A stretch of 43,923 bases of DNA from Desulfatiglans anilini DSM 4660 (GCF_000422285.1 NZ_AULM01000029.1:1-43923), one strand, 5' to 3'. Counted from the stretch's first letter, positions 16,763-43,814 are shown. Notes: a model not told the origin generated them from the letters alone. Numbers and translations are program-made.

Positions 16763-16784
16763 AATCTCCCCTTTCTTACGTTTC

Positions 16785-17807: not shown

Positions 17808-17819
17808 GATTTGATCTCC

Positions 17820-25198: not shown

Positions 25199-26638
25199 TC
25201 AGGGGGGCGTCGGGGTTGATGTGTCCGACAAGGTGGACAGAAATTGCAGGACCGGCTGGCCCAATGATGGGTTTAAGCCCAGGTTGCCAAGCTCGGTGGT
25301 ATTCATATTCGCTGCAACTTCCGGGTCCGGCCAGGGCACCCTGACGGGCATGGGGGGAGGCCACCCTTGGCCAGGAACGTCCCGGGTGTTGTAAAAGTGC
25401 ATGATGTGCTGCAGAGGGTGGATTTGCGTGAAAGAGAAGCTGCCATCTTGGATTTGAAAGTTGCTTTTGAAGTAACCGTTGTGGCCGTAGGCCCTGACAC
25501 ACTCCGGATCATCCACCCACTCCGTACCGTTCCACTTGACCCGCTTGGCGACATTGCGCAGCGTCGGCACCTTGTGCTTGCCGTAATTTCCCAGGGCCTT
25601 GGACGCGTAAGTCTCACCATCCGAGGCGGTATCCGTGGTCGCGGCCAGAAAACCGCCCAGACCCTGATCCACCCAAAGCTCTCCATCGGGGTTGATCTTT
25701 CGGGGTTGGGTATAGAAGGGATTCAGGGGGTTTTTCGGGATCCCTATGTTGTCATAGCTGAAGTCCGTGAACAACGGAGGTTTATTTCCATCCGCGCCGC
25801 TGGGCGTGAGAACGTGGCAGGTCGAGCACTTGGCTTGATCGTTGAAAACGGCCAGCCCGAAGAGTTCGGTATCGTTCAAGATGCCGTCAGCATAAGGTTT
25901 ATAGCCCGCCCAGTTGGATTGTTTGATGTCTTCAACCTTGAACCCAGCCGCCGTGGCCGCCCGCCAGAATTCATCGAACCTGGAGTCGAAGGGATTGACT
26001 TCGTCCGAGCGTTCATAAGCTGCGATGGCCTTGCCTATCACCTGGTATAGAGCGTCTACATCCAGTTTCCCGTGATCAATCATTTCGCCGGTCTCATCCC
26101 AGTAGACCTGCTCAAACAGATCAGCATACTCTGATCTGAGAAGCGCCATGACGACGACCTTGATTTCCTTGGGATTATGCATTTCCACCGGGTTCAGGAA
26201 AGGTCCCAGGGCCTGCTCCTGCAAAGGATCACCTAGAGTCCAGCCGGTGGCCCGGCCATCCCAGAACATGCCTCCGAAGATCAAACCCTTTACCTCATCA
26301 TAATACATAACCGGACTCTCCCCGGCGTAGGCTGCGGAGGGGGGTTTGCGGTTTCCGGCCCGGGTATGGATCACCCCGGGCATGACCGCGCCGGCCGCGT
26401 TGATCTCCGAGTTCGGCCCGGTCCAGCCCACCTTAGGATCATGGCAGGTGGCGCAGGACATCCCCGGCGGCGTTGAAAGATTGGTGTCGAAAAACAGGTG
26501 TTTGCCGAGCAGTTCCAGATCGGTGAGAGCTGGCGGATCAGGTGCGGCCTCTGCCGGCGATAATGGCTGCCACACATTGAACATCAAACCGAATGCCAAA
26601 CCCAACGCCATGAATAATCGACCAATTGACTTTTCCAT
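25199..26638 (-). CDS. di-haem cytochrome c peroxidase (CcpA/MauG superfamily)
   Basis: The 479-residue protein has a signal peptide (FMALGLAFGLMFNVW, cleavage after AEA), so it is periplasmic or surface-bound. It has two haem c sites, CATCH at about residue 62 and CSTCH at about 271, the standard spacing in bacterial cytochrome c peroxidases. GKHLFFDTNLSTPPGMSCATCH and FNDQAKCSTCHVLTPSG are typical, as are FWDGRA near 125 and KVPTLRNV before the C-terminal region. It is longer than the usual 320-350 residues, with extra C-terminal sequence (HNGYFKSNFQIQD onward). It reduces H2O2, or oxidises another partner as MauG does. It starts 37 bp after the protease stop, good AGGAGGGG site, and ends the copper/haem gene set. 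Confidence 0.88.
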   Translation of the reverse strand: MEKSIGRLFMALGLAFGLMFNVWQPLSPAEAAPDPPALTDLELLGKHLFFDTNLSTPPGMSCATCHDPKVGWTGPNSEINAAGAVMPGVIHTRAGNRKPPSAAYAGESPVMYYDEVKGLIFGGMFWDGRATGWTLGDPLQEQALGPFLNPVEMHNPKEIKVVVMALLRSEYADLFEQVYWDETGEMIDHGKLDVDALYQVIGKAIAAYERSDEVNPFDSRFDEFWRAATAAGFKVEDIKQSNWAGYKPYADGILNDTELFGLAVFNDQAKCSTCHVLTPSGADGNKPPLFTDFSYDNIGIPKNPLNPFYTQPRKINPDGELWVDQGLGGFLAATTDTASDGETYASKALGNYGKHKVPTLRNVAKRVKWNGTEWVDDPECVRAYGHNGYFKSNFQIQDGSFSFTQIHPLQHIMHFYNTRDVPGQGWPPPMPVRVPWPDPEVAANMNTTELGNLGLNPSLGQPVLQFLSTLSDTSTPTPP

Positions 26639-26675
26639 GATTCCCCTCCTGCTCGATCCCCTGTGGGATGCGACC

Positions 26676-28439
26676 CTATTTTTCCGAAACCGTCGTTATT
26701 TCCCATCCCTCTTTGCCCGACACGGAGATCTCCCCCGGGTTTCCTCCGACCCTGTTGAGGGAAAGGGTCCAACTGGAACTCTTGCGGTTCCACTTCATGG
26801 GGCCGTAGCCCCCGACTTCCAGGGATGCATCGCTTCCCAGGGCACTTGTCGCCTCCACGACGAGGGAGTCTTTCTTGCGCACGTACACCGCTTCGAGCAC
26901 CTCGATGGTCAGGTCCCAGCCGTTGCAGTCCTGGTCGAGCCCGTCGTGCTTGATCTCGGACGCACCGGGATGGATGGAGGGATCCAGGTCATTGCAGTCC
27001 GAGGCCGTCCCGCAATCCGCCTCGGCGTAATAGCCGTCTCCGTCGGCATCCGTGCAGGAGAAGGGCGAGTCCAACAGATAAAACGCCTCTAGGACGTCTA
27101 AGAGACCGTAACCGTAGACGTTGTCAGGCCCTGCGAATCCAAGGTCAAGAGCCGATTCTTTCAGGGCGCCTTCGAGTTCGGCAACCGTCAACCCTGGGAT
27201 GCCGCTCAGGAGGAGCGCCATGGCCCCGGCCACATGGGGCGAAGCGAAGGAGGTGCCCGAAACATACGCGTAGGAATCCGGGATCACGCCGCCGAAGGTG
27301 AGGTCGGTGGTCCTGATGCTCACTCCCGGCGCAGTCACCTCCGGGTAGATGCTTCCATCGCATGCGGACGGGCCGCGGCTGCTGTAGAGATCGATGCTGT
27401 CGGATGCGTCCACGGCGCCCGCTGCGAAACCTTCAGGATAATTCGCCGGGCTGACGCTGGTGTAATCGGAGGGTCCGCCGTTTCCTGCTGAAAAAACCAC
27501 GGCGATTTCGGCGGCCTTGAGGATCTGGACATCCTCCCGGAATTCTGTGACACAGCGATCGGCCTCCTGGTCGAACCCCCAGGAATTGTTCACCACATCA
27601 GGCGCATCGTCCGTCCATGGGTCTCCGTCCGGATCCAGGAGCCATTGAAATCCCAGGTGCACGGCGCTGTAAGAGGCAGCACCAAGGTCGTTGAAGACCT
27701 TGACGGCAATCCACTGCGCATCGGGTGCCACCCCGACGGCCGTGCCCCCGTTCGACCCACCGACCATGATGCCCATGACCTGGGTGCCGTGCCCATCCCT
27801 GTCATAGGGGGTCAGGTGCTCACCGTACGGGTCGAACCAGCTGTTGGCACCCCCACGCCAGCGATCGGCGAGGTCCGGGTGGTTGACGTCCACCCCTGTG
27901 TCCATGGCAGCCACCACAACCCCTGCGCCGGTGTAGCCCAGGCTCCAGAGTTCCGGGGCCCCGATCCGGGCGATGTTCCATTCGGGGCCGGCGGGGACAT
28001 CGGCGGTCGAGACGGGCGCCTCGAAGTGTTTGTCCAGTTCCACCCGTTCCACGTCCGGCCGTCTGGCCAGTGCGCGAATCAGCGCGGGCCGCGCCGTCAG
28101 CGCCAGCCCATTGACGATCCAGAGCGGCCTGAGCCCCTTTGCACCTCCCGCCCGGGCGAGCGCTTTCACGGGCGCCTGGGTCTCATCCGCCTTGTTTTTG
28201 AGGGATTGAATGAGGTTCCTCCTCCTGAGGCCCCTGTCCTTGCCCGAGAAGGCAGGCAACTCAACCTTGTCCAGCATGGTCACGATCACAGCCACCTCTT
28301 CCTGAGGACCGAGCGAAGGGAGAAGCGCTTCGAGCTCCGCCCCGATCACCCCGGCCCTGGCAGGCAGAGCGCACAACAGGAGCAGACCCGCTGCCAGGAT
28401 GGCGGATCCCACCATGTTTACCGGTTTTAAAAGGCCCAT
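26676..28439 (-). CDS. subtilisin-like (S8) serine protease with MopE-type metal-binding motif
   Basis: The 587-residue exported protease has a signal peptide (SAILAAGLLLLCALPARA), then an I9-like propeptide of about 100 residues. The S8 domain carries the full triad: AMDTGVDVNHPDL (Asp), GHGTQVMGI (His) and GTSFASPHVAGAMALLL (Ser), with oxyanion NNSWG. After the protease, about residues 470-520, DADGDGYYAEADC, SDCNDLDPSIHPGASE and DGLDQDCNGWD match the Asp/Cys-rich pattern of MopE/thrombospondin-type metal-binding repeats. A beta-rich tail follows. ATG 28439 has AAGGAG at ideal spacing; an upstream frame start is rejected. It likely matures surface proteins of this cluster or is itself retained at the cell surface (inference). 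The peroxidase gene follows at once. Confidence 0.88.
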   Translation of the reverse strand: MGLLKPVNMVGSAILAAGLLLLCALPARAGVIGAELEALLPSLGPQEEVAVIVTMLDKVELPAFSGKDRGLRRRNLIQSLKNKADETQAPVKALARAGGAKGLRPLWIVNGLALTARPALIRALARRPDVERVELDKHFEAPVSTADVPAGPEWNIARIGAPELWSLGYTGAGVVVAAMDTGVDVNHPDLADRWRGGANSWFDPYGEHLTPYDRDGHGTQVMGIMVGGSNGGTAVGVAPDAQWIAVKVFNDLGAASYSAVHLGFQWLLDPDGDPWTDDAPDVVNNSWGFDQEADRCVTEFREDVQILKAAEIAVVFSAGNGGPSDYTSVSPANYPEGFAAGAVDASDSIDLYSSRGPSACDGSIYPEVTAPGVSIRTTDLTFGGVIPDSYAYVSGTSFASPHVAGAMALLLSGIPGLTVAELEGALKESALDLGFAGPDNVYGYGLLDVLEAFYLLDSPFSCTDADGDGYYAEADCGTASDCNDLDPSIHPGASEIKHDGLDQDCNGWDLTIEVLEAVYVRKKDSLVVEATSALGSDASLEVGGYGPMKWNRKSSSWTLSLNRVGGNPGEISVSGKEGWEITTVSEK

Positions 28440-28455
28440 CGCTTTCTCCTTATGA

Positions 28456-28932
28456 TTATTGCACAATCAAGTTTTTCACCTCGAGGTCGCCGATCACCAC
28501 CGTCACCTCGCTCCCCGACTTGACGAGCCCCGGATTCCCGAAGAACATCCAGTAAATCCGCCCTTCCTGAGGCTCGTTGGACGTGCCCTGCAGAGGGCCG
28601 ACCTTTGCGGTCATCGGAACGCCAAGCACCTTGCCGGTTTCCTGATCCACGAGATAGGGCTTCACATTCCTATCGAACAACGGAGCGGCCTTGACCGGAT
28701 CCACCACCCGGTACCGAAAGTCAACCATATGTCCCCGGGCGCTCATCCAGATCCCGACGATCTCGATGCCCCAGTTTTGAGCTAGATCCATCTGCATGGC
28801 CCCGGACTCACCGCTAGGGGAGGCCTCCTCCAGCGCGGGGGTAGAGATTTTCTCCGAGCAGGCCCCGGCGGCCAGCAGCATCGATGCCGAAGCGAACAGA
28901 AGCAGCCATCTGTGCAGCCGTGATAGAGTCAT
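28456..28932 (-). CDS. small lipoprotein, function unknown
   Basis: The 158-residue precursor has a basic start and hydrophobic stretch ending AAGAC, a lipobox that places Cys 25 or so as the lipidated residue; Ser follows it, which favours the outer membrane. The mature part (AQNWGIEIVGIWMSARGHMVDFRYRVVDP...) is beta-rich with DFRYRV and IYWMFFGNPG. It resembles no family I can name with confidence. It lies 16 bp before the protease gene and 165 bp after the first cupredoxin gene on the same strand. It could anchor or chaperone the redox proteins. Confidence 0.65.
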   Translation of the reverse strand: MTLSRLHRWLLLFASASMLLAAGACSEKISTPALEEASPSGESGAMQMDLAQNWGIEIVGIWMSARGHMVDFRYRVVDPVKAAPLFDRNVKPYLVDQETGKVLGVPMTAKVGPLQGTSNEPQEGRIYWMFFGNPGLVKSGSEVTVVIGDLEVKNLIVQ

Positions 28933-29097
28933 GAATCGAATTCCCCTTTCGTCTCTTCAAACGATCCGGGCCATTTCCGCCGGTCCGCTGCCGTTTCGGG
29001 TGCGGGGACCGGCGATGGTGCCGGAGTGCACTGGCAGCTGCGGGAGGCGTCGGCCCTCTTCCGCTCTTCAGGAGAAAAGGGTCGACGCTCCGCCGCC

Positions 29098-30603
29098 TCA
29101 GTTTCTCACGACATTGACCCGTACGGTCGCGGTATTGGAAGTCGCACCGTCGTCGTCTCTGACCGTGTAGGAGAAGACATCCGTGCCCAGGAAGTTCTTC
29201 CTGGGGGTAAAAACCACGCCGTTGGACACCACCTCCACGGTGCCTCCCCTGGTCGGCTGCGTGACGATGACGATCGAATCCGGATCGATGGCGCCGTCGG
29301 GATCGTAGTCGTTCTCCGTCAGGTAGACGAACGCGGTGGTGTTTCGGGTCGTGGTGGCGTAGTCGTCCACCGCCACGGGAGGATCGTTGACATCCTCGAT
29401 GGTCAGCATGATCGTCGCGGAGCCCGGCAGGCCCCCGCTGTCCGTCACGGAGGCCGTAATCATGTGCATGCCTGGGGCAAGCGCCGAGGTCGAGAAGGAG
29501 CCGCCGGTGCCGATGTTTCCGTCGATGCTCGAGGTCCAGGAAAGCGTCCCGGAGAGGTCGCCGTCCTCCGCATCCATTGCGGTCCCGCTAAAGGCCACCG
29601 TCTCGCCCAAGACGAACGAAGCCCCGTCGAGCGGCGAAAGGATGTTCACGGCGGGGGTGGAGCCCCATCCGACTGTGAGATTCACCAGCATCCCCCCGCC
29701 GCTCACACCGGCATTGGTGAGATGGTGCATCCGGTCGTAAACGGCGTAGGTTTCGGCGGCTTCAGGCACCCAGATCACGTCCAGGGTCTTCATGGCCGGC
29801 AGGAGCGCGGAGTACTGCTCCCTCGGGTAAGGGTAGGGGTTTCCGTCCTCGGCGACGACCGTCCACCACCCGTTCTGAAGCGCGGGGACATGGTTCTTGA
29901 GCCCTGCGTTGAGGAGGCGGATCAGGACCCGCTGATTCGCGCTCACCGTATTCAGGGCAGGAGTGTCCGGATAGGGCTGGCCGTTGACCAGAAAATAGGC
30001 CGGGTCGTACCTCAAGGGCTGGGCCTGGAGGGGAGCCGGGTCGTGAAGAGCCGGATCGATCTCGCTGTAAAAGAGGACCAGCTCTGCGTCATACGGGACT
30101 CCAGGGTAGGCCTCTCCTAAAGCCGGCACCACCTTGACCCCGCCGTAGAGCCCCATGTGCACCTGCAGGGCCGGGTCGGCGCCGCTGTGGTAGATATACG
30201 TGCCGGGCCGCATACCGGTCCAGGTGTAGGAGCCTGTATCGCCAGCCGCGACGGTGCCGGTAAAGGAGGTGACCCTGCCGCCGTCGACCACCGGCGAAAG
30301 CGCCGAGGCCTGGCCCGGGATCACGATCGAAACCGGTACTGGAAGGTTATTCGTCAAGTGGATGGTGAGGGTGGTATCCCCCGGAAGGACCTCCAGCATC
30401 GGACCCGGCACCGTCACCACTCCCCCCGCATCCGCGTCGGCAAACCCCCACACGGTAATGACCGTGCTATCGGGCATGGTGAGCGTTGTGGCATCCGCCG
30501 TCAGGTTGTACTCCGCGGCGAAGGAGGGCGCAGCCATCAGGAGGACGGCGAGAAGGATCGATGCAAGCCATCCTGGTTTGTTCCTTGGTCTGGTGAGCTT
30601 CAT
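29098..30603 (-). CDS. multicopper-oxidase-like cupredoxin protein with Ig/cadherin-like C-terminus
   Basis: The 501-residue exported protein (signal LASILLAVLLMAAPSFA) has two parts. Residues about 30-330 form two cupredoxin domains of multicopper-oxidase type: VPGPMLEVLPGDTTLTIHLTNNLP, TYIYHSGADPALQVHMGLYG and QRVLIRLLNAG. Most copper ligands are missing: no HWHG, no HPxHxH, no HCH. It is therefore probably not an oxidase alone. Residues about 330-500 are an Ig-like domain (VNILSPLDGASFVLGE) and a Cadherin_5/Big_9-type domain (NDPPVAVDDYATTTRN, FTPRKNFLGTDVFSYTVRDDDG), both common in surface-attached proteins. Good AAGGAGGG before ATG 30603; starts 16 bp after the preceding oxidase gene. 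Confidence 0.75.
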   Translation of the reverse strand: MKLTRPRNKPGWLASILLAVLLMAAPSFAAEYNLTADATTLTMPDSTVITVWGFADADAGGVVTVPGPMLEVLPGDTTLTIHLTNNLPVPVSIVIPGQASALSPVVDGGRVTSFTGTVAAGDTGSYTWTGMRPGTYIYHSGADPALQVHMGLYGGVKVVPALGEAYPGVPYDAELVLFYSEIDPALHDPAPLQAQPLRYDPAYFLVNGQPYPDTPALNTVSANQRVLIRLLNAGLKNHVPALQNGWWTVVAEDGNPYPYPREQYSALLPAMKTLDVIWVPEAAETYAVYDRMHHLTNAGVSGGGMLVNLTVGWGSTPAVNILSPLDGASFVLGETVAFSGTAMDAEDGDLSGTLSWTSSIDGNIGTGGSFSTSALAPGMHMITASVTDSGGLPGSATIMLTIEDVNDPPVAVDDYATTTRNTTAFVYLTENDYDPDGAIDPDSIVIVTQPTRGGTVEVVSNGVVFTPRKNFLGTDVFSYTVRDDDGATSNTATVRVNVVRN

Positions 30604-30619
30604 GTTCGTCCCTCCTTTC

Positions 30620-31948
30620 CTAGTGCATGGGGGCGCCGGGGGGATTGACGATCAGCATCGTCATCATGCCGCCCGGGAAAATGTCGTAGTTGACCATCTC
30701 TTTTTCGGTGTGAGAGTGCCACATGTAGACGAATCCGCCGTAAGGGTTGAGGCCTCCTTCACCGGGGGGGAGGGCCTCCATCCGGCCTAGGAAGGGCGAA
30801 CCACTCCAGAAGCCGCCGAAGGTGAGATCCAGATCCTGAGGAAGGGCGACGGGAAAGGGTTTTCCGTGGTCGGCGCACCACTCCCAGGTGTTGTCGTCGA
30901 ATCCGTCACCGTCCATGTCCATGCACATGTGCGCGTAGTCGGGGTCGTTGGGATCTCCATAGATATCCCAGCCCATTCCCTTGCCCGTCCATCCGAAGAT
31001 GGCATCGGCCGTCTCGCCCGGCACCGACTGCAAGGTGAACACCTCATAGCTCAGGTCCGCTCCGGCCCCGGCCTCACTTTGCAGCAGCCTCCCGTTGCGC
31101 GCGATCACCCTGGAGTGGTTGCCGTGGTGGTGGAAGGGGTGCAGATCCCTTCCCGCGCCGATGATCCTCAGCAGCAGCCTCTGCCCCGGCTGCATCATGG
31201 GCATGCTGTCATAGGGCTGGGTCGGCAGCCAATCCACACCGGGCATCAGCATGGTGTCGGGGGCGCACCGGCCGTTGATGAACCAGTAGTTCGGAAAGTA
31301 ATCCGAGAGGTAGTTGGTGTCCTCGAGGGCGGCCGGCCCCTGGAACTCGACCAGCTGGTGAAGCCGCGGGTCCATCTCGCTCAGGAGGAAAAGGTACTCC
31401 TGATCGTACATCGAATCCGGGTGCCCGTACGCCGTGGGATGGGAGGCATCGAAGCCGGTGGGCCTCACGATGATCGCCCCCAGGAGCCCCATCTCCACCT
31501 GGAGTTCCGGGTGGGTGCCGCTGTGGTAGAGGTAGGTCCCCGCGTGGGTGGCGGTGAAGGTGTATTCCACTGTGCCCCCCGGCGGCGCCTCGTCGGTGAT
31601 AAGGCCGGCAGTGCCGCCCTGCGTTGACACGACGTGCCCCGGGAACAGAATGGATGCATTCTGCCCGTAAGGCAGTTGGTTCGTCAGGGTCACCGTCACC
31701 TCGTCCCCCTGGTTGACGATGAAGGTCGGTCCGGGATACTGGGCCCGCCCATCCCCGTCCGCATAACCCCAGAAATAGACGCTCCCCCCGTCCGGTGTGC
31801 TGATGTGATCCGCTTTTGCGGTCAGGCTGAAGCTGGGCCCCGGGATGCCGTCGATCATGGCCCAGGCCGGGCCGCCCCACAAGATCAGGCACAGGGCAAC
31901 CGAAAGCACCATGGGCAGCTTCGCCGCGTGTATGGATCGTAGTCTCAT
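30620..31948 (-). CDS. multicopper oxidase-like protein with HPFHHHG and HSH motifs
   Basis: The 442-residue exported protein (signal LPMVLSVALCLILWGGPAWA) has cupredoxin domains with VYFWGYADGD, YPGPTFIVNQGDEVTVTLTNQLP, TYLYHSGTHPELQVEMG, QRLLLRIIGAGRDLHPFHHHGNH and, near the C-terminus, FVYMWHSHTEKEMVNYD. HPFHHHG corresponds to the HPxHxHG motif that provides type 1, 2 and 3 copper ligands. The last motif is HSH rather than HCH, so the type 1 Cys is missing. The first-domain HWHG is also absent. An insert DMDGDGFDDNT looks like a calcium-binding loop. ATG 31948 follows GGAGGAG at ideal spacing; an upstream ATG at 31966 would include that site within the coding region. It is 20 bp downstream of the third oxidase gene. 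Confidence 0.78.
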   Translation of the reverse strand: MRLRSIHAAKLPMVLSVALCLILWGGPAWAMIDGIPGPSFSLTAKADHISTPDGGSVYFWGYADGDGRAQYPGPTFIVNQGDEVTVTLTNQLPYGQNASILFPGHVVSTQGGTAGLITDEAPPGGTVEYTFTATHAGTYLYHSGTHPELQVEMGLLGAIIVRPTGFDASHPTAYGHPDSMYDQEYLFLLSEMDPRLHQLVEFQGPAALEDTNYLSDYFPNYWFINGRCAPDTMLMPGVDWLPTQPYDSMPMMQPGQRLLLRIIGAGRDLHPFHHHGNHSRVIARNGRLLQSEAGAGADLSYEVFTLQSVPGETADAIFGWTGKGMGWDIYGDPNDPDYAHMCMDMDGDGFDDNTWEWCADHGKPFPVALPQDLDLTFGGFWSGSPFLGRMEALPPGEGGLNPYGGFVYMWHSHTEKEMVNYDIFPGGMMTMLIVNPPGAPMH

Positions 31949-31968
31949 GGCTACTCCTCCTTCCATTC

Positions 31969-33234
31969 TTATTGGATCCGGATTTCGGTCATCATGCCGC
32001 CGAAGGGATCATCATCGTTGCTGAGGTAATTGAGATTGGTCGTGTAAAGGAAATAGGTTCCCGGATCCACATCCGCCGTGTCGAGGATGACGTCCAGGGC
32101 CTCCCCGCCGCCCAGTGTGACCGAGTGGGTCGTGTAGTAGAGGTCCTTCCCGGGGGTGATCCCGTCGGGGCTCGGCCCTCTCAGGAGCCGGGCGTTATAC
32201 CCGACCACCTTCATCGGGATGCCCAGGCTCGCGAGGGTGTAAAACCGGGTCACGTTCAGATTGGAGACGCGCAGCAGGATCTTCTGGCCCTGGCTTGCCT
32301 CGATCAGGCTGCTGACGGGCTGGGAGACCCTTCCCATGTTCTCCATGGGCGGCGTCAGCGAACCCGGCACGATCGTGTCAGGGTATCCCCGGCCGTTCAG
32401 CATGGGATAATCGTCCCTCATGAGGGCGAAGGGCAGGGGGTTGACCGATTCGCTTGCATCGTGGAACGCCGAATCGAAGGACCCGATCTGGATCGGGTAC
32501 TCGACGTCGTAGTAGGTGGAGCCATCCCCGTCGTTGTAGGCGTATGTATATCCCGCCTGGTGGATGAAGCCGTTCAGGTCCTGCCCGGCGGGCAGCCGAT
32601 TTTGGGCCGGTCTGACGTACAGGTTTCCGAGCATACCCATCTGCATGTGCTCGGTGGCCTCCACGTGGCAGTGGTACATGTAGGTGCCGGGCTCCACCAC
32701 GTGGTAGAAATAGGTGAGGGTCGCCCCCATGTTGATCGAGATGGAGGCATCCGGCACCCCGTCAAAGACGGAGGAGGCCTGCGGGAAACCGTGCCAGTGG
32801 ACCGTGTGGGGGTCGAAGAGGTCGGGGCGCATCATCATCCCGACGTTGGTGAGGTTCAGGTAAAACCGGTCCCCTTCATCGAGCACGATGGTGGGGGCGG
32901 GGAAAGCGGCCGACATCATCCCTTCCTCCATCACCCTGTCTTCGGGGATGCCCGTCACGTCGCCGAAGCCGAACATGTACATCGACCTTCCGTCGGCCAT
33001 GGAGATGTACCCGTCTCCGGCTGAAAGGTGCATGCACTTGACGCCCGGGTCATACTCCGGGTTCGGTTTGTTGCTGGGCTTCCCGTTCGGCAGAAGCAGG
33101 AACGGGTCCGGTATGCTGTCCCCGTTCAGGTCACCGGGGCATTGGACAAGGATCTGGGCCATCGCAGGCACCGACCCGCCAAGCAGCAGAAAGGCCATGG
33201 CAAGCAGAGCCGCATATCTTGAAAGCTGCTTCAT
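31969..33234 (-). CDS. multicopper oxidase-like protein with HWHG and HCH motifs
   Basis: The 421-residue exported protein (signal YAALLAMAFLLLGGSVPAMA) has an N-terminal domain with HTVHWHGFPQ (about residue 145) and TYMYHCHVEATEHMQMGMLG (about residue 190). These are the HxH type 2/3 motif and a Cys-containing HCH...H..M type 1 site. The C-terminal cupredoxin domain (KILLRVSNLNVTRFYTLASLG, then DVDPGTYFLYTTNL) has lost the HPxHxH and HCH ligands expected there. The oxidase is therefore incomplete alone and complementary to its neighbour. DLNGDSIPDPFLL near residue 35 resembles a Ca-binding dockerin-type loop. AAGGAG before ATG 33234. It lies 66 bp after the beta-helix gene, with a strong hairpin in between. 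Confidence 0.8.
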   Translation of the reverse strand: MKQLSRYAALLAMAFLLLGGSVPAMAQILVQCPGDLNGDSIPDPFLLLPNGKPSNKPNPEYDPGVKCMHLSAGDGYISMADGRSMYMFGFGDVTGIPEDRVMEEGMMSAAFPAPTIVLDEGDRFYLNLTNVGMMMRPDLFDPHTVHWHGFPQASSVFDGVPDASISINMGATLTYFYHVVEPGTYMYHCHVEATEHMQMGMLGNLYVRPAQNRLPAGQDLNGFIHQAGYTYAYNDGDGSTYYDVEYPIQIGSFDSAFHDASESVNPLPFALMRDDYPMLNGRGYPDTIVPGSLTPPMENMGRVSQPVSSLIEASQGQKILLRVSNLNVTRFYTLASLGIPMKVVGYNARLLRGPSPDGITPGKDLYYTTHSVTLGGGEALDVILDTADVDPGTYFLYTTNLNYLSNDDDPFGGMMTEIRIQ

Positions 33235-33258
33235 CTCGTTTCTCCTTTCATTGGATCT

Positions 33259-33288
33259 CTGCCTGCCGGGGCGATCCCCGGAAGGCAG
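33259..33288 (-). other. strong intra-operon hairpin between beta-helix and oxidase genes
   Basis: CTGCCT-G-CCGGGG-CGAT-CCCCGG-A-AGGCAG is two perfect 6-bp stems with one mismatch and a tetraloop. No T-tract follows on the minus strand. It could be a processing or mRNA-stability element that sets different levels of the two neighbours. Confidence 0.5.
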
Positions 33289-33300
33289 AGCGGGTTCTCT

Positions 33301-36300
33301 TTACGGGAGCAGCTCGTCTGCGCCGATATCCACCGGAGCGGTTCGGAGCTCGCCGTCGAAATCCCAGGCAAGATCCGGGTAGGCCCCGCTAAGAGGGGTC
33401 CCTGCACCCACGGCAGGCGACCCTGCTTGGATGTGGTAATCGCTGCACACCCCGGGGTTTCCATCTCCAGGGACGGCATCGTCGCAGCGGGTGAGGGGCC
33501 CGAAGCGCACCTTGATGAAGTTTCCTCCCTCGTCAAAGGCCGGAGCGGGCTGCAGCGCCGTGGTGCCTTCGCCCGGAACGACCGTCGTCCCCCTGCCGCC
33601 GTTCAGATAGGGGAATACGAACCCCGGGTCCAAACTGACGTTCGTCCCGTCGTATCCGGTGGCGTCGGTCAGGATGGAGTAGGCCGGATCCAGGCTTCCG
33701 GCGGCGCCCATCACGGCGAGATCCCAGTGAGGTTCGGGTGCGGGCTGCAGCGTGTACACCGGATCCGCATCATTGGGGTCTCCCGTGAAGTAGAACGAGC
33801 GATTCTCCCAAACGATGTCGTTCGCGAGCTGCGGGTTGCTGAAGACCCCGGCCACACCCAATGCCGCCAGTTCAGGGCTGTGGGCGCGGGAGACGATGCC
33901 GGCCGGCTGGGGGCTCGACACATTCGGGTTGCCCGGCGAAAAGGCCTCGCCTGCCGTGGCCGTGCTGTCGTTGTGAGCCACGGTGTTGTGAAGGATGTTC
34001 ACCCTTGCGCCGTCATAGAGCGAGATTCCGCCCCCGGCCAGGGCGGCCAGGTTGTTGACCACCATGTTGTTGAGGATGTCGATGGTGTGCCACTGGTCGG
34101 CCTTTTTTAAATTGTCGGCCACATCCTGACCGTTGGCGCGCTGGACGGCGATGCCGCCCCCATCGCCGGCTTCAGCCGCGTTGCCTTGGATCAGGTTCCC
34201 GATCACCTTGACACTGCCCGACCCGGGGCTGAGACTGCCCGGGCCGCCAAGGGGGGCCTGCCCGCCGACGAAGATGCCGCCGCCCATGACCGTCACCCCC
34301 TGGTTGAAGGATTCATTGAAGAGGACGGTGTTGCGTGCGATGAGGCCGTTGTCGCTGAGGCCCAGGTGGCCGATGCCGCCGCCCTGGCCGAGGGTGAAGT
34401 TGCCGCAGATATAGTTCTCCACGAGGCTGTAGCCGTCCGAGCCCGTGCACAGGGAGACGCCGCCACCCGCCCCGCCGAGGCCGCCGTTCTGGGTGATGTG
34501 GTTGTTGTGGATTCGGATGAAGTCATTGTCGGCATCCGAGTGCAAAAGGGTGTTGCCCTGCTCCACGGTCAACTGGGCGTGCCCGAGGCGGATGCCGCCT
34601 CCGAAAAAGCCGCTGTTGTTGATGATCCGGTTGTTGCTGATCTCCAGGTAGTCCCCATAGCCGTTGACCACGATGCCGCCGCCCTGATCGGAGCCCCTGA
34701 TGGTGAAGCCGTCGATCCGGGCCCCCCGGTTCCGCGGGTGGTCGAAGCGGCTGTTCCCGCCCGACTTCGCGAGCACCAGGATGCCGGCGCCTTCCTCATT
34801 GAAGAGCGTCACGGGTTCGATCCCGCCAAAGCCGATCTCCTGGCCCGGCGCGAGGTCAACGAGGTTCCCTTCGATGAGCTGCCGAACCTTATCCCTCCAG
34901 GCCGTGAGCTTCTCGGCCTGGACGCCCTTCACCGCGTTGATGACCACGCTGCCTGCGCCGTATCCCTGCAGCCTCACCGGCTTCCACATGATCACGGATT
35001 CATTGTAGGTGCCCGGGGGCACGAGGATAAGATCCCCGGGATCGGCGGCATCGATCGCAGCCTGAATGGAGCCGCCTGCCGGGACGGTCAGGACCTCAGC
35101 CTGCCGCGCCGTCCCCACCTGGACCGTGATGCCCCTGATGGTGGAAAGGCCGTTGTCGTTGCGTGTGATGACCAGCTGGTAGGCAGCCCCCTGCCTGGGG
35201 ATATTGGACGGGGTTGTGGCCGTGACAGCGGCGTTGCTCCAATTGTTCACGGTCAATGGATAAATTGTCCCATCGGCCGCGACGAGCTTGACCGTGCCTC
35301 CGCTGCCGAACCCATAGTCCCTCAAGACCGTGCGGGATCCTGCCCCATCGAAGGTCGGGTCGGGTATGGCCACCGACCCCATGGAGTAAATGGTGAGCGG
35401 GCTGTTGCCCCCCGGAACGTACGGGCCGTTTTGGACATAGTCGATCACCGGCGTCCCGTCGGGGAACTCGCAGTCGAGGGGGTACTGGTCCGGCCCCGCG
35501 AAGGCCGCCACGGGGATGACGGGCGTATCCAGGTAGGTGGTTGCACCCGGCATGTACTGGAAGGTGTAGCAGAAGGTGCTGTATTGCGCATTGTGATAGC
35601 CCAGCGGATCGGCGTTGGAATCGTTCATACAGGTGGTGATCATGTTGGGCGATATGCCGCTTGGCTGAGGCAGGTTCTCCGTGTAGGTGGAGGGCACCAG
35701 GGCATTGTACCTGCCCCACTCATCCGAGTAGGTCTGCCCGATCAGGCGGCCCGCCCAGTCGTAAATGCCGACCGGGAGCCAGGGCGGAGCATACTTTTCT
35801 CCGAACTGGGGAGAGGTGGGGTCGAACTCGTTCGCCGTATCATCCAGGATGAATCCGACAATGTGACCGGCGATCGGCGTCTGGGTGAAGAGGAAGAAGT
35901 CGGCCGCCGCATTTTGCCCGCCGCTCAGGTTGATGAACTTTCGGTCGCAGAGGTTCAAGACCGCGTCTTTCTTGGGGGCGGCGACACCGGGAAACAATGT
36001 CAGTTCAGCAGGGACCGTATACGGCTCGCCGACGCACTGAGGCGGAAGCAGCTGCGGACTGATGAGGTAATCCTCCCCGAAATCCACGTTTTTGTCCTGG
36101 CTCTTGACGATCTCGTATCCCTGGGGAGGGATCACCTCGACGACGTATTGCCCGGCGGGAAGCGGAACAACGTCGCCATTTGCAATCACACTGCCAGATG
36201 CGTCAACTGTGACACCGTCAGGGCAGTATTCCGTAAAGGCGTAGCCGCCGTCGAACACGCCCGGCCTCACCTGGTTCCAGTTGTACATGCCGTCGTAGCA

Positions 36301-38271
36301 CCGGCCGCCGTTATAAAAGGGGTCGCCGGGGTCGCCCGGGCAGCCGGTGGGCGGATCGCCGTCCCAGCTGTCGGTGGTGGTCGAGTTGACAAGCAGGCCC
36401 GGCACCGGATTCCCGCTTCCGTCATAGACCACGGAGTACAGGTTCACGCGCACGTTGGGGATTCCCGGTTCCCAGGGCTCTGCGGCCCCGTATTCGGGGT
36501 CGTCCTCGGCACGGGTCGTCGAATAGAAGACCATCCCCGAGATGCCGCCGTTTTCTCCCGGGCCATACGCCTTTTTGCCCCACATCATGACGCTCGTTTG
36601 CCCGAGAAAACCCTGGAAGGCCTGGGTAAGGACGGGGCCTGTCTCCGTGCGATAGGCCAAACCTCCATTGTCCGGCTGGGCCTGCGGATTCAGCTGTCCG
36701 CCGAACGTCCAGGGATCGGTGCCGTCTATCGGCCCTCCATGGTCGACGACCACGGTAACCCCCGTCGCCTTGAAACGTTCGAACCCCACCTCGGCCACCT
36801 GCCAGGAGAAAAACGGGAAAACCTCGTCGAAGGGGACGTACCCCTCGTGGTCCGTGGTCATGGACTGGTACATGGTGCCGTCCCGCCAGCGCAGGTTGAC
36901 GGTCTGGTCCATCATGGGCATCTCGCCTTCGCCCCAGAAGCCGTCTTCGTCCAGATCGTTGAACACGAAGTGCTCCAGCCTCGTAAACCACTGGAAGACG
37001 GGGACATCACCCAGTTCGAGGTCTGTCCCCTCCTCCACCCTGACGCCGTGAAAGGCGAAGATGAGATCCAGGTTGTCGTCCCAGACCACGAGCTGGTAAT
37101 CTCCGGGCGGCACGTTGGGGATCTCGAAGGTCCCGTCGGAGTTGCATCTCTTGGCGAACACCCCTCTTCCGGCAGGCCCGAGGTTCAGGCCGACCCACGG
37201 GGTGGTGTGCCCGAACGGGGCGCCGTTATAAAAGGCATAGTCCGGCGGTCGGGAGAGGTGGAGGTTCACGACCTGGCCCGTGATGCTGCTCCCGCCGGTG
37301 AGAACCGTCGTGTCGTTCATCGGGCTCACGAATCCGAAGAAGACATGCCAGCCCGGGGGGCCGAACTCCGCGAAGAAAGGAGGTTCGTTGGCCTTGACCC
37401 AGGCGTCGATAACCCTGGTGCCCTCGATCGTGGAGGTCTGGGCCCAGTTCGTGCCCGGAGGCGGCACGGCGAGGATCCCGTACTTCCCGGGTGCGAGATT
37501 CTTGATGACCGCCTCCCCGTTCGCATCGGTGAGCACATAGCCGTTCCCCATCATCGCCACGGTGCCGTCCGGATTGTAGGTGGTCCCGATGGGGTTGCCG
37601 AAGGCGTCCATCATCATGGCGCCGGCCGACATCCCGTACCGGCCGCCTGCGTCTTCCACGATGATCTTGAAGCCGGCGAGCCCTACTTCCTGGGGAAGAT
37701 CCGGCGCATTGTTGATGGGGAAGTTGTCCTCGAAGACGAAGACCGTGATCTGCGCCGTCGGGAGCGGCAGGGCGTTCAGGTAGACCGGCACATCTATTTC
37801 TCCCCCTGTGAGCGCCGCCGCGCCGATGCTCCAACTTCCCGAGTCTTTGGGAATGACGGAGACGTAGTAGGATTTCAAGGGATCCAGCGTGACAGTCATG
37901 GCATCGGGATCGACACCTTGTTCGTCTCCCACATCTCCCCACAAGACGGTCCAGGTTTCATCCCCCTGGGCGACGACCGGCATATAGCTCCGGTGAAAAC
38001 TCAATGCCAGGGTGTCGGGATCGGGGGTGCCCGGAGTCGTCCGGTAGGTCAGATCCTCCTCGATGACCCAGCGGTACGCTGTCAAAGGCACCGGCGTCAG
38101 GGGTTTTTGAAGGGAATCGCGGGGTACGCCCTTCACTTCGAATACGGCCGCTTGAGCCCCCGCAAACGTCCAGGTTTGCAGAAAAAGGAAAACAGCGGCG
38201 AGGACCATCAGCCACCCGCCGGTTTTCCACCTTTCTTTCCGATTTCCCATACTTCTTCCTCTGTGAACCAT
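33301..38271 (-). CDS. giant exported protein: repeated beta-sandwich domains plus right-handed beta-helix
   Basis: The 1656-residue protein has a long basic signal peptide (hydrophobic core WLMVLAAVFLFLQTWTFA). Residues about 60-950 contain repeated carboxypeptidase-regulatory/SdrD_B-like beta-sandwiches, recognised by NGYVLTDANGEAVIKNLAPGKYGI, FEIPNVPPGDYQLVVWD and PAGQYVVEVIPPQGYE. An IPT/TIG-like domain follows at about 955-1060. From about 1065, AGGSIQAAIDAADPGDLI and VPPGTYNESV open a right-handed parallel beta-helix of NosD/pectate-lyase type, with repeated N-N-x-I and GGGI turns up to about 1600. It ends with DIGADELLP, usual for polymorphic beta-helix proteins. ATG 38271 is chosen for its ideal AAGGAGG. 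It is likely a surface scaffold that displays or binds the oxidases encoded after it (inference). Confidence 0.78.
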   Translation of the reverse strand: MVHRGRSMGNRKERWKTGGWLMVLAAVFLFLQTWTFAGAQAAVFEVKGVPRDSLQKPLTPVPLTAYRWVIEEDLTYRTTPGTPDPDTLALSFHRSYMPVVAQGDETWTVLWGDVGDEQGVDPDAMTVTLDPLKSYYVSVIPKDSGSWSIGAAALTGGEIDVPVYLNALPLPTAQITVFVFEDNFPINNAPDLPQEVGLAGFKIIVEDAGGRYGMSAGAMMMDAFGNPIGTTYNPDGTVAMMGNGYVLTDANGEAVIKNLAPGKYGILAVPPPGTNWAQTSTIEGTRVIDAWVKANEPPFFAEFGPPGWHVFFGFVSPMNDTTVLTGGSSITGQVVNLHLSRPPDYAFYNGAPFGHTTPWVGLNLGPAGRGVFAKRCNSDGTFEIPNVPPGDYQLVVWDDNLDLIFAFHGVRVEEGTDLELGDVPVFQWFTRLEHFVFNDLDEDGFWGEGEMPMMDQTVNLRWRDGTMYQSMTTDHEGYVPFDEVFPFFSWQVAEVGFERFKATGVTVVVDHGGPIDGTDPWTFGGQLNPQAQPDNGGLAYRTETGPVLTQAFQGFLGQTSVMMWGKKAYGPGENGGISGMVFYSTTRAEDDPEYGAAEPWEPGIPNVRVNLYSVVYDGSGNPVPGLLVNSTTTDSWDGDPPTGCPGDPGDPFYNGGRCYDGMYNWNQVRPGVFDGGYAFTEYCPDGVTVDASGSVIANGDVVPLPAGQYVVEVIPPQGYEIVKSQDKNVDFGEDYLISPQLLPPQCVGEPYTVPAELTLFPGVAAPKKDAVLNLCDRKFINLSGGQNAAADFFLFTQTPIAGHIVGFILDDTANEFDPTSPQFGEKYAPPWLPVGIYDWAGRLIGQTYSDEWGRYNALVPSTYTENLPQPSGISPNMITTCMNDSNADPLGYHNAQYSTFCYTFQYMPGATTYLDTPVIPVAAFAGPDQYPLDCEFPDGTPVIDYVQNGPYVPGGNSPLTIYSMGSVAIPDPTFDGAGSRTVLRDYGFGSGGTVKLVAADGTIYPLTVNNWSNAAVTATTPSNIPRQGAAYQLVITRNDNGLSTIRGITVQVGTARQAEVLTVPAGGSIQAAIDAADPGDLILVPPGTYNESVIMWKPVRLQGYGAGSVVINAVKGVQAEKLTAWRDKVRQLIEGNLVDLAPGQEIGFGGIEPVTLFNEEGAGILVLAKSGGNSRFDHPRNRGARIDGFTIRGSDQGGGIVVNGYGDYLEISNNRIINNSGFFGGGIRLGHAQLTVEQGNTLLHSDADNDFIRIHNNHITQNGGLGGAGGGVSLCTGSDGYSLVENYICGNFTLGQGGGIGHLGLSDNGLIARNTVLFNESFNQGVTVMGGGIFVGGQAPLGGPGSLSPGSGSVKVIGNLIQGNAAEAGDGGGIAVQRANGQDVADNLKKADQWHTIDILNNMVVNNLAALAGGGISLYDGARVNILHNTVAHNDSTATAGEAFSPGNPNVSSPQPAGIVSRAHSPELAALGVAGVFSNPQLANDIVWENRSFYFTGDPNDADPVYTLQPAPEPHWDLAVMGAAGSLDPAYSILTDATGYDGTNVSLDPGFVFPYLNGGRGTTVVPGEGTTALQPAPAFDEGGNFIKVRFGPLTRCDDAVPGDGNPGVCSDYHIQAGSPAVGAGTPLSGAYPDLAWDFDGELRTAPVDIGADELLP

Positions 38272-38369
38272 GACATCCTCCTTCTCGTTGTTTGCCGCCT
38301 TCATCCACCGCCATGAAACCGTTCCGTTTCTCGCTGCCCAACCGGCGACTCCTTCCGGCCGGCAGATCC

Positions 38370-38390
38370 AGGCGGCCTCCGAGGCCGCCT
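38370..38390. other. perfect 10-bp inverted repeat upstream of the giant gene
   Basis: AGGCGGCCTC-C-GAGGCCGCCT (38370-38390) lies between the small ABM-domain gene and the giant gene. As RNA it would form a very stable hairpin but no T-tract follows; an attenuator or processing site is possible. The rest of 38272-38469 holds no gene. Confidence 0.4.
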
Positions 38391-38469
38391 CTGTCTCCGA
38401 CGCTGGCGCTCAGACCGTTCACCGCAACGAACCGCCCGGGTCCGAACTGCGCTGAAACAGGAACCGCTG

Positions 38470-38796
38470 TCACACACCATTCCAGTTTCCAACCCATTCA
38501 TGGACCGCTTCCTCCGCCAACCGCGCGTAACGTCTGGGCTCGCAGGGTGCCAGGAGAAGGTTCATGGCGCCCTGCAGCACCTTGTACATCTCGGATTGCC
38601 TATGCCGCTCGAGATCTTCGAGCGTCTCCCACACCTCGAACAGGCAGACTTCGTCCGGTTCCTCCAAGCTGAAGCAGGGGTCGCAGACGAGACATCCCTT
38701 GACCGACCGTATAGAAGGGACCAACGAGACCAGTGTCTGCAGGAGTTCTCTCCTTTTTTCCCGCCCGACTTTCATGTGGAAGGTGATCCAGATCAT
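38470..38796 (-). CDS. small antibiotic-biosynthesis-monooxygenase (ABM) fold protein
   Basis: The 108-residue ferredoxin-like protein, from ATG 38796, opens MIWITFHMKVGREKRRELLQTL, the usual ABM-domain start. SVKGCLVCDPCFSLEEPDEVCLFEVWETLEDLERHRQSEMYK follows, the standard second half (strand 'cllEvWet..dLerH..s'). Relatives include quinol monooxygenases and haem-degrading enzymes, but many are of unknown role. Three Cys in GCLVCDPC and EVC are unusual and might bind metal. There is no signal peptide, so it is the only cytoplasmic product of the set apart from the regulator. The ATG lies only about 2-3 bases after the predicted sigma54 transcription start, so it is either leaderless or initiates at the Met at 38775. 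It is first in the regulated gene set. Confidence 0.75.
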   Translation of the reverse strand: MIWITFHMKVGREKRRELLQTLVSLVPSIRSVKGCLVCDPCFSLEEPDEVCLFEVWETLEDLERHRQSEMYKVLQGAMNLLLAPCEPRRYARLAEEAVHEWVGNWNGV

Positions 38797-38984: not shown

Positions 38985-41900
38985 TTATTCAGCAGGGTTC
39001 ACTTCGTGGCGGCGGATGTGGAGTTTTTTCATCCTGGCGCGGAGCGTGCTTGGATGCAGGCCCAGGATGGAAGCTGCACCCTGTTTGCCGTTGATGCGCC
39101 AGCGGGTCGCTGTCAGGGTGGAAAGGATATGCTCCCGTTCCACCTGCTCGAGCGTTCTCAAATCGGAATCCTGGGGCTGCGGTTGATTCTCGAGCTTTTC
39201 GGCCAATACCAGCGCGGGTCCCTTACCCAGGATCACCGCACGTTCGATGACGTTCTCCAACTCCCGGATGTTGCCGGGCCAATCATATTCCTGAAGCATC
39301 CTCATACTCTCAGGATGAATCGATGTGAACCTCTTTCCGAGTTCTCTGCCGTAGCGCTCGACGAAGGCCTCGACCAGCAGAGGGATGTCATCTTTCCGCT
39401 GCCTGAGCGGGGGTACGGTCAACGGAAACACGCTCAACCGGTAAAACAGATCCTGTCGAAAACGGCCCGCGCGAACCTCTTCTTCCAGGTTCCGGTTGGT
39501 CGTCGCCAGGATCCTCATATCCACCCGGATGGTCTTGGACGAACCCAGGCGCTGAATCTCACCGTGCTGGATCACCCGCAGCAATTTTGCCTGCAATTCC
39601 AGCGGCATCTCCCCGATCTCGTCCAGACAGAGCGTCGACCCGTCTGCAGCCTCGAACCGCCCCTCCCGCCGGGCATCGGCCCCGGTGAAGGCTCCCTTCT
39701 CGAACCCGAAAAGTTCACTTTCGATCAGGTTGCTCGGCAGGGCGGCGCAATTGACGGTGATCATGAGTTTGTCCCTGCGCGGACTCATCCTGTGGACGGC
39801 CGACGCTATCAAGTCCTTCCCCGTGCCGGTTTCACCCATGATCAAGACGGTCTTGTTCGTCGGGGCGACCTGCTCGGCCCGGAAGAGGACATACTTGATG
39901 GCGCTGCTCCGGCCGATAATCTGTTCGAATTCGTGCTTCAGCTTCATCTCCTGCCGGAAATAGATGTTCTCCGCCTCCAGGCGGTCTTTGAGGGCCTCGA
40001 TTTCCGACAAGGCTTTCAAGACCGCTTCTTCGGCCTTTTTCCTCTCTGTTATATCCGTCAAGACAGCGAAACTGCCCACGAACCGCCCATCTTTACTTAC
40101 GATGGGTTTGGGCGAGACCAGCGTATAAATCACGGATCCATCCTTCCTGGTCCAGGCCAACTCGTACGAACTTCTAACCCCTTCCCTGCGTCGGCTCATC
40201 TGGTCGCTCAAGATCTTCCGATTCGCCTCGTCAAGCCACTCCTCGACAGAATGTCCGATGACCTCGCTGCATTCAGCCCCCAACATCGTGCACAATTTCT
40301 TGTTGGCATAGGTCCAAATCCCATTCTCGTCCTTTATCCCAAGCCCTTCGTTCATGGTTTCGACCAGTGCACGATAGCGTTCTTCACTCTCTCGCAAAGC
40401 TTCTTCCGCAGCCTTCTTCTCGGTGATATCGCGGTTGGTCCCCCGCCGTCCCAGAAAACGGCCCTCCGCATCGAAAACCGGCAGACAGACGTGGGCTATC
40501 CAGCGAATGGATCCATCGGGACGGACGATGCGAAATTTGACCTCTCCCTCCAGACGTCTATCTTCGATATGGACCACGTGGCCCCCGAAAAGAGCCTGAT
40601 CATCAGGATGGATCAGCCTGGAAAACAACTGGGGATCGGAGATGAATTCCTCTGCACCGTGCAGCGTAATTTCTTTGCAGGAAGGCGAAACATAGACAAA
40701 TCTTCCTCCCTCGTCCACCCACCATTCCCAGTCATAGGTGTTCTCAGCGACGATGCGGTATTTGGTTTCGGAGGCCTGCAAAGCCATTTCGGCCTCTTTC
40801 CGCCAGGTGATGTCCTGAAGAATCTCCAGCCTGCACATACTCCCGTCATCACGCGCAACAGGGGTTTCGAAAATTTCATAGGTCTTGCCTGTCCTGGCGG
40901 ATTGCCACTCCCATTGAACGCTCTTTCCCTCGAACACCTCCTGACTCCTGCACCATGGGCAGACGTCCAGCCGGTCTTCCAAGTATTCATAGCATTTGCG
41001 CCGGTCGGGCGGCCCGAACTCCTTTTCGAGGACAGGGTTTACATACTCGATATCGTAGGTCTGGTTGGCGATGTAGACCCCGTAAGGCATCGCTTCCAGG
41101 ATCGACAACAAGTTGTTCCGCTCGATTTCAAGGCTGCGTTCCGCGTGCCGGCGCTCTTCCACCTCCTTTGAAAGATCCCGGTTGACGCTGACCAAGTCCG
41201 CTGTACGCTCCTCTACCTTTCGCTCCAATTCCGCGTGGGCTTTTTTGAGCGCCTCCTCGCTTTCTTTGAGACTCCTGAAAAGGACGGCCTGCGGCTTTGC
41301 CACGCCCAACTCGATGATCGCTTTGTAGATGCAGTAAAATGCGGCGATTTTCAGAAAATGACCGAGAAGGTTGGGTTCTCCATACACATCGGTGTAGGCG
41401 GAAAAGAACAGTTCCGAAAGAATGGTCAAAATTATGGAAACGATGAGCAGACGAAAAACGGCGGGGTCGAAGCGCTCTCTTTTCTTCAGAAGCAGGATAA
41501 TGGCCCCCAGGAGAATGAGACCGATAATGAACTCGCTCGCAATCTTAAAAAGAGTCAGACCCTCGCCCGGCACGTAACAGGTGGGAAACACATCCCAAAA
41601 AAATATAGACGACAGGAGCAAGGCCACAACCGTCGCATAGGCTGCGAGGGCGGCCTTCAAGTTCGGTCTTTTTTCAACGAAGAAAGGAGCGATCAGGAGC
41701 GACAGGCTTTGAAGGTACCGGGCGGCGATCCAGAGCTGGGTCGCCAGGTCTTCGTCATGATCGGGAAAAACGCCCATGCCTCTGTAAGCAAGTGTGTGAA
41801 CGAGATCCAAACCTCCGATGAAGAGGTAGGCGACCCCCAGCAGCAACAGGTAATAGTTATCAAGGGAGCGTCGGGCATTCCAGACGAGGAGGAAAATTGC

Positions 41901-42044
41901 AGCGGCGACAGCCGTGCTGAATATCTCGCTCAGCGCATGAAAAAGAAGATAACTGTAAAGGCTTGTCAGGTAAAGGCCGCCGAAAACCAAGGCCGATACA
42001 ATCATCAGGGCATACGATCTGCCCTCTCTTCGATCAACCGTCAT
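38985..42044 (-). CDS. membrane MASE3-PAS sigma54-dependent transcriptional activator
   Basis: The 1019-residue regulator starts with eight or so helices forming a MASE3 sensor domain ([27 protein letters not shown] at about residues 65-90), to about residue 250. A coiled coil ([18 protein letters not shown]) and three PAS domains follow at about 310-420, 425-545 and 555-670. The first PAS has Cys pairs KCYEYL and CPWC that could hold a metal or respond to redox. The AAA+ domain has Walker A GETGTGKD (about 736), the sigma54 contact loop GAFTGA (about 783) and Walker B LCLDEIGE. The C-terminus is a Fis-type helix-turn-helix ([18 protein letters not shown]). All ATPase features are intact, so it should activate a -24/-12 promoter, and one lies directly downstream. 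AGAGGAG precedes ATG 42044. Confidence 0.93.
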
Positions 42045-42995: not shown

Positions 42996-43814
42996 TCACA
43001 CTGTTTTCGGCACTTTCCCCAGGCGCAGGACCTGGTTAAGGAAAACTGCCATTACGGTGCTCAGCGTCAATGATGACTCGAAGAGCGGTCTGATAGCATG
43101 AGGAATGTCGACGAAAAGAGAGGGGAGCAGATCGAGGCTCAGTCCGAAAATAATCGATATGCCGATCACAAAGGTTTTGCGGTTATCTATACCCGCCCCG
43201 AATATGATCTGAATCCCTGAAATGATCATGAAACAGGTGACAAAAATCAGGATGGCCCCCATCACCGGCATCGGCATGAGTGAAAGAACCCCGGTTATCT
43301 TCGGAAAGAAACCGAAGATGATGAAGAGCGCACCAGCCATGTACCCGATGTAGCGGCTGGTAGCACCTGATGCGGCGCTGAAGGCTACATTGCTTGCTGA
43401 GGTGTCTGAAGCCATTCCTCCCAGCAGACCCGAGACCGTTGCGCAGCAGGCATCCGCCACAAGCCCGTTGCCGATGCGCTTCGTATCAGGTTGCGTCCAT
43501 TCCGTGTCATTGACTTTTTCACACATGATGAGATTGCCGAATGACTTGAGCGCTCCGGTAATAGAGACGATAGCAAAGATTGGGACCAGTGACCACTTGA
43601 AAGTGATGTCCAGCATCCCTTTCGTTGAAGGCAATGCCAGCCACGGTACAGCGTCAATCATATGAAAGTGCTCTCTGGTCAACAAACCGGCAGGGAGTGA
43701 TAAGAGATAACCGGTGATCAACCCGCCAAGGACACTGTAAAGTTTGAGAGCGGCGCAGCCTGTTTCCTCCAAAGCACACTGCATCGGCAAGCTTCTGATG
43801 GGCCAAGCCATCAT
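42996..43814 (-). pseudogene. NCS2 family purine/pyrimidine permease, N-terminal half missing
   Basis: The 272-residue product matches only the C-terminal part of NCS2 (uracil/xanthine) permeases, which normally have 430-480 residues. KLYSVLGGLITGYLLSLPAGLL joins the family at about its sixth helix. SITGALKSFGNLIMCEKVND, the VADACCATVSGLLGGMASDTSASNV helix-loop and the final PMPVMGAILIFVTCFMIISG follow normally. Before KLYSV, the segment MMAWPIRSLPMQCALEETG has no family likeness, and an in-frame TGA lies about 16 codons further upstream. The visible 110 bases upstream therefore do not continue the gene, pointing to a deletion or rearrangement. Transport activity is unlikely; a frameshifted upstream half beyond the window cannot be excluded. 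Confidence 0.6.

Follow-up and report, generated by a model that had tools for sequence, protein, structure and literature searches.

Multicopper oxidases (MCOs) have a trinuclear copper site formed by eight histidines, four from each of two domains (PMC3600357). The two-domain MCOs are trimers in which the cluster is made by two protomers, and they are classed by the location of their type-1 copper (PMC13151041). In the six-domain MCOs (ceruloplasmin, hephaestin and bacterial and algal proteins) one of three possible trinuclear sites has been kept (PMC3600357), and the Mnx (MnxEFG) manganese oxidase of Bacillus is a multi-protein MCO complex that depends on several genes (PMC5622069). Descriptions of the known two-domain oxidases give them as one-protein trimers, and those of the six-domain ones as single chains. 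Here we report on a gene set in a 43,923 nucleotide stretch of Desulfatiglans anilini DSM 4660 (GCF_000422285.1 NZ_AULM01000029.1:1-43923; hereafter the window), in which three adjacent genes encode the MCO-like proteins MCO1, MCO2 and MCO3 next to the gene of a beta-helix protein, BHX. We consider it probable (about 0.68) that the three are diverged two-domain subunits of a hetero-oligomer, likely a ring of three, which has one active site and is anchored to BHX by MCO3.

The evidence for a single active site came from the copper ligands, which were compared in an alignment of 22 MCO1 and 22 MCO2 proteins, to which two Burkholderiaceae pairs and then five more loci were added, giving 29 pairs. 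Domain 1 of MCO1 has the ligands of a type-1 copper (H143, C189, H196 and M201) and one half of a trinuclear site (H146, H148, H188 and H190), all of them invariant (29/29). These residues lie in the motifs PHTVHWHG (H143, H146, H148) and HCHVEATEHMQMGM (H188, C189, H190, H196, M201), and the His-x-His (HWH, HYH or HFH) and HCH motifs were invariant in the alignment. The remaining half of the trinuclear site is held by domain 2 of MCO2 (H279, H281, H417 and H419, again 29/29) in the motifs HPFHxH (H276, H279, H281) and HSH (H417, S418, H419); H276 was also invariant, and Ser418 takes the place of the type-1 cysteine. The matching positions in domain 1 of MCO2 and MCO3 are mostly V/I/P and S/G/Q. 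From domain 2 of MCO1 and MCO3 the cluster histidines are gone, with the old type-1 histidine retained in part of the MCO3 proteins. No MCO of the set has a complete site alone, and MCO3 is without any copper-site set. This complementary split between MCO1 domain 1 and MCO2 domain 2 was found in 29/29 pairs, including, at about 40% identity, those of Paraburkholderia and of Cupriavidus metallidurans CH34, a strain that is tractable in the laboratory. An earlier reading of the window, made from its sequence only, had taken each of the three cupredoxin proteins for an oxidase; the ligands indicate one site built from MCO1 and MCO2.

It could be argued that MCO1 is a blue electron carrier and MCO2 a histidine-rich copper binder, acting as separate proteins with no trinuclear cluster. 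This would explain why half of the cluster is missing from each protein alone, and the oxidase activity of the set is only predicted. However, exactly eight cluster histidines, four per protein, have been kept at 29/29 loci on the domains that face one another in the trimeric relatives, while the non-facing domains have lost theirs, and we regard two unconnected copper proteins as distinctly unlikely.

The fold of the proteins was consistent with a shared site. In profile alignments, MCO1 domain 1 and MCO2 domain 2 fall on the two domains of 3g5w (Nitrosomonas europaea blue copper oxidase) and 2zwn (metagenome laccase), which we take, also from the motif positions in these alignments, to be type C two-domain MCOs. 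AlphaFold monomer models of MCO1 (pLDDT 80) and MCO2 (pLDDT 74) superposed on both domains of 2zwn and 3g5w with Z scores of 26-27 and a root-mean-square deviation of 2.5-3.0 A over 266-269 residues, and Foldseek too placed these structures as matches of both models. By sequence and by fold, the two proteins match MCO1 best and are among the best matches for MCO2, and they have in common with the set two cupredoxin domains, a type-1 copper in domain 1 and 4 + 4 trinuclear ligands across the domains. The traits of a type C protein were thus found in part of the set, the two-domain fold in the MCO1 and MCO2 models and N-terminal type-1 ligands in MCO1 (29/29). The difference is that in 3g5w and 2zwn both halves of the site are on one protein, as expected of a homotrimer, whereas here they are divided between MCO1 domain 1 and MCO2 domain 2, the ligands of MCO1 domain 2 and MCO2 domain 1 having been lost, and the third paralogue is site-less.

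We compared the set with the other described systems as well. Counted over MCO1, MCO2 and MCO3 together, it resembles the six-domain MCOs in having six cupredoxin domains in total and a single trinuclear site kept. Those MCOs are one long chain, whereas here there are three polypeptides, with the type-1 copper in a domain-1-type unit. Membership of the six-domain MCOs was rejected, as the three reading frames are separate at the 29 loci and only MCO3 is ever fused, and then to BHX. In Mnx, MnxG is the sole MCO and is accompanied by the small, unrelated MnxE and MnxF; in the present set, two MCO-fold proteins would share the active site itself. Membership of Mnx was rejected too, as the set contains no single complete MCO chain, and its small exported protein, LIPO, gave no match in Pfam or NCBIfam searches.

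The copper nitrite reductase NirK is also a two-domain cupredoxin trimer with copper at the interface, and in the fold comparisons of the MCO1 and MCO2 models NirK structures were among those that ranked next. NirK has a mononuclear type-2 site, without His-x-His and His-Cys-His pairs, whereas the ligand pattern here is trinuclear and the chains are different proteins; the invariant HWH/HYH/HFH and HCH motifs of MCO1 exclude the mononuclear pattern and hence membership of NirK. These fold matches raise the possibility that the acceptor is not O2 but nitrite, NO or another compound, as in NirK, and such an acceptor would fit an anaerobe. The genome of the window (4.67 Mb, completeness 98.7%, the window being its contig C27) has dsrA and dsrD above curated cut-offs, and a search of it gave no match to haem-copper oxidase (PF00115, COX1) or bd oxidase (PF01654), so that the organism looks like an anaerobic sulfate reducer. 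We nevertheless judge a non-O2 acceptor to be very unlikely, because the His-x-His and His-Cys-His pairs of MCO1 are unlike the single type-2 pattern of NirK and the remaining four histidines are supplied by MCO2.

A link between MCO3 and the beta-helix protein was provided by gene fusions. MCO3 and BHX are a single protein in CH34 (2698 residues) and in Paraburkholderia (2723 residues), at loci L055 (10479-22238) and L056 (10383-22287), respectively; the Paraburkholderia set genes are annotated merely as hypothetical proteins. At a further locus (L064, genome G577) one open frame of 2739 codons spans MCO3 and BHX. By eye, a Big_9-like stretch that resembles the C-terminus of the window MCO3 lies between the MCO3 and BHX parts of the Paraburkholderia fusion. 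In the tree, the three fused loci group together as a single clade (support 1.0), and one fusion event, rather than three, is the simplest explanation. Because MCO3 and BHX are fused at these loci, MCO3 probably ties the enzyme to BHX as a surface scaffold. An apparent MCO2 frame of 1010 residues in genome G513 was rejected as a fusion, because in this high-GC DNA it is just an extended open frame and not a joined gene.

The fusions also bear on whether MCO3 belongs to the ring. The split site of MCO1 and MCO2 might be that of a heterodimer or of an oligomer of other stoichiometry, with MCO3 outside the ring as an adaptor between enzyme and BHX only. MCO3 has no copper-site set, it is less conserved than MCO1 and MCO2, and it is fused to BHX in one clade, all of which would suit an adaptor. 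Against this, MCO3 is present at all 29 loci and by sequence has kept its cupredoxin domains, and a ring of three predicts two interfaces that are dead on both sides, which is the pattern observed. We consider a pure adaptor role unlikely, though worth bearing in mind.

In the ring of three that we favor, MCO1, MCO2 and MCO3 would be three diverged copies of a two-domain, type-C-like MCO subunit, and their assembly would follow that of known two-domain MCOs, with each cluster located where domain 1 of a protomer meets domain 2 of its neighbor. There would be one active site per complex, because ligands (type-1 copper and 4 + 4 histidines) are left only at the interface of MCO1 domain 1 and MCO2 domain 2. 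Electrons would enter at the type-1 copper of MCO1 and pass via Cys189 to the joint MCO1/MCO2 cluster, which would reduce O2 to water. MCO3, copper-free, would close the ring, and its immunoglobulin-like C-terminal domain would attach the enzyme to the secreted beta-helix protein, so that the outcome would be an oxidase anchored at the cell surface. In this scheme we infer the assembly, its stoichiometry, the copper loading and O2 as acceptor. As substrate, our best guess would be a metal ion in its reduced form, such as Cu(I), Fe(II) or Mn(II), and removal of O2 in an anaerobe is an equally plausible benefit.

The gene set itself was conserved. Relatives were drawn from a species-genome scan, 395 genomes of the phylum, 61 relatives, plasmid records and the phylum of another carrier, and gave 29 loci in total with the window included, 22 of them in a first batch. 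MCO1, MCO2 and MCO3 were adjacent, in the same order and on one strand at the 29 loci. BHX precedes MCO1 at most of them and follows MCO3 in the fused clade; it was missing only at L041 and L046, whose contigs break off a short way upstream of MCO1, and whole-genome searches found it on another contig in both genomes. An unrelated reading frame of 892 residues lies between BHX and MCO1 at L047 (2224-4902), the only insertion seen within the core. LIPO was found at 21 of the 29 loci, those of Cupriavidus and Paraburkholderia included, and some of the remaining loci are cut by contig ends. The subtilase SUBT was found at 12 of the first 22 loci; searches did not find it at the Burkholderiaceae loci, nor at several others for which flanking sequence was available. 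The core is BHX-MCO1-MCO2-MCO3, usually with LIPO and in about half with SUBT.

MCO1, MCO2 and BHX were each carried by the identical 16 of 395 genomes of the phylum. Pairwise-distance matrices of the set genes also agreed (MCO1-MCO2 r 0.81, 0/2000 permutations). Carriers are spread over many families and include bacteria of other groups. Among the 61 relatives, only one further genome of the window's own family had the set, with an MCO1 identity of 56%, though other groups were closer. This patchy distribution points to transfer of the set as a unit between bacteria. One contig (C71 of G154) has two divergent sets, L038 and L039, which face opposite ways with about 20 kb between them and fall on distant branches of the tree.

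Several observations weigh against the ring with its single oxidase site. The models cover the monomers of MCO1 and MCO2 only and no complex, and MCO2 residues 417-419, the second copper motif, are in a low-confidence stretch. Correlated distances and co-occurrence are expected for any operon transferred in one piece. In an organism that looks like an anaerobe, O2 is not an obvious acceptor. Lastly, copper-related neighbors (a heavy-metal P-type ATPase gene at L005, two NosL genes at L050 and an RND efflux gene at L045) are suggestive but were seen at few loci only, and do not fix the substrate.

In the window, the eight genes lie on the minus strand (38796-25199) in the order ABM, BHX, MCO1, MCO2, MCO3, LIPO, SUBT and CCP (Table 1), with intergenic gaps of 165, 66, 2, 16, 165, about -11 (or +16 if an internal start is used) and 37 bp. 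Open reading frames and Pfam/NCBIfam searches agreed with the eight same-strand genes, their families and the gap lengths of the sequence-only reading; its length of 1656 residues for the beta-helix protein holds if an internal ATG is used as the start, the longest frame giving 1667. Its claim that all products but the first are exported was supported by hydrophobic signal-like N-termini, as judged by eye, on seven of the eight proteins, ABM being the exception; those of every core protein are of Sec type (by eye). In the genome of the window, no Cu-oxidase_3 proteins other than MCO1, MCO2 and MCO3 were found.

Table 1. Features of the window at and next to the gene set.
Feature	Position	Strand	Basis or trait	Place in the set
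ABM-domain protein (PF03992)	38470..38796	-	Pfam; without signal peptide	neighbor outside conserved set
BHX, beta-helix/SdrD_B-type (SdrD_B/NosD-like) scaffold, 1667 residues	33301..38304	-	Pfam/NCBIfam; exported	core
MCO1, two-domain cupredoxin (Cu-oxidase_3)	31969..33234	-		core
MCO2, two-domain cupredoxin (Cu-oxidase_3)	30620..31966	-		core
MCO3, two-domain cupredoxin (Cu-oxidase_3) with C-terminal Big_9/cadherin-like domain	29098..30603	-	Pfam	core
LIPO, small exported protein	28456..28932	-	lipobox LAAGAC	usual member
SUBT, exported S8 subtilase	26676..28466	-	MopE motif	accessory member
CCP, CCP_MauG di-haem peroxidase-like protein	25199..26638	-	Pfam	neighbor outside conserved set
MASE3-PAS-sigma54 regulator	38985..42044	-	Pfam	upstream of set, same direction

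The genes of the window are so closely spaced that they may be co-transcribed, which might be taken to mean that all eight genes form a single surface copper/haem pathway, with the di-haem peroxidase and the ABM protein as members. However, no homologue of ABM or CCP was found at any of the 28 other loci, and we consider such a pathway extremely improbable. Of the eight genes first read as one set, the BHX-MCO1-MCO2-MCO3 core was conserved; the ABM and peroxidase genes fell away, and with them the haem part, the peroxidase adjoining the set in the window only. Orthologues of the core were not scattered, and as the core is a unit at 29 loci, it can still be regarded as a copper oxidoreductase set, so far undescribed, on a beta-helix scaffold.

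The neighborhood of the set varied. At L034, reading frames for GspE, GspF and pseudopilin-like proteins of type II secretion (15573-19778) begin 22 bp past SUBT, which suggests a dedicated secretion system at this locus, and type II secretion-like genes are also close to L039. In the window and at L005, L038 and L049, BHX is preceded by a sigma54 activator gene that reads in the same direction, and regulation of the set by the MASE3-PAS-sigma54 protein is possible but unproven. The idea of a sigma-54 promoter ahead of the set gained no support from a pattern search (17 matches in the window versus 16 expected). The cytochrome-like proteins beside the Cupriavidus and L042 sets matched nothing in Pfam, and a desulfoferrodoxin gene is close to L004. 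Near the contig end in the window, a xanthine/uracil permease-like frame (42996-43814) aligns with just the C-terminal half of its family and is probably truncated by that end.

At the lost type-1 site of MCO2, residues H276, S418, E421 and E423 were invariant, and a D366-H367 pair nearby in sequence was strongly conserved. From the alignment, this His/Ser/Glu cluster, the Asp-His pair or both could be a new metal site. We give an even chance to a history in which an ancestral homotrimer became three proteins with one active MCO1/MCO2 interface, MCO3 as a copper-free anchor and H276/S418/E421/E423 of MCO2 as a possible substrate-metal site beside the cluster. If true, the set would be a living, separate-chain counterpart of the loss of two of three sites proposed for the ceruloplasmin-type six-domain oxidases.

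A literature search, whose coverage was without most subscription journals and which is thus weak evidence of novelty, found no MCO in which two gene products each supply part of the trinuclear site, and the CH34 papers searched for the set locus had no description of it. If confirmed, the split site would mean that a single enzyme is listed by annotation pipelines as three "oxidases", and that a sulfate reducer with no detected terminal oxidase has a predicted surface copper oxidase. It would also show how the subunits of a homotrimer can specialize one by one, either ahead of fusion or with no fusion at all, a point of relevance to the origin that has been proposed for ceruloplasmin-type proteins.

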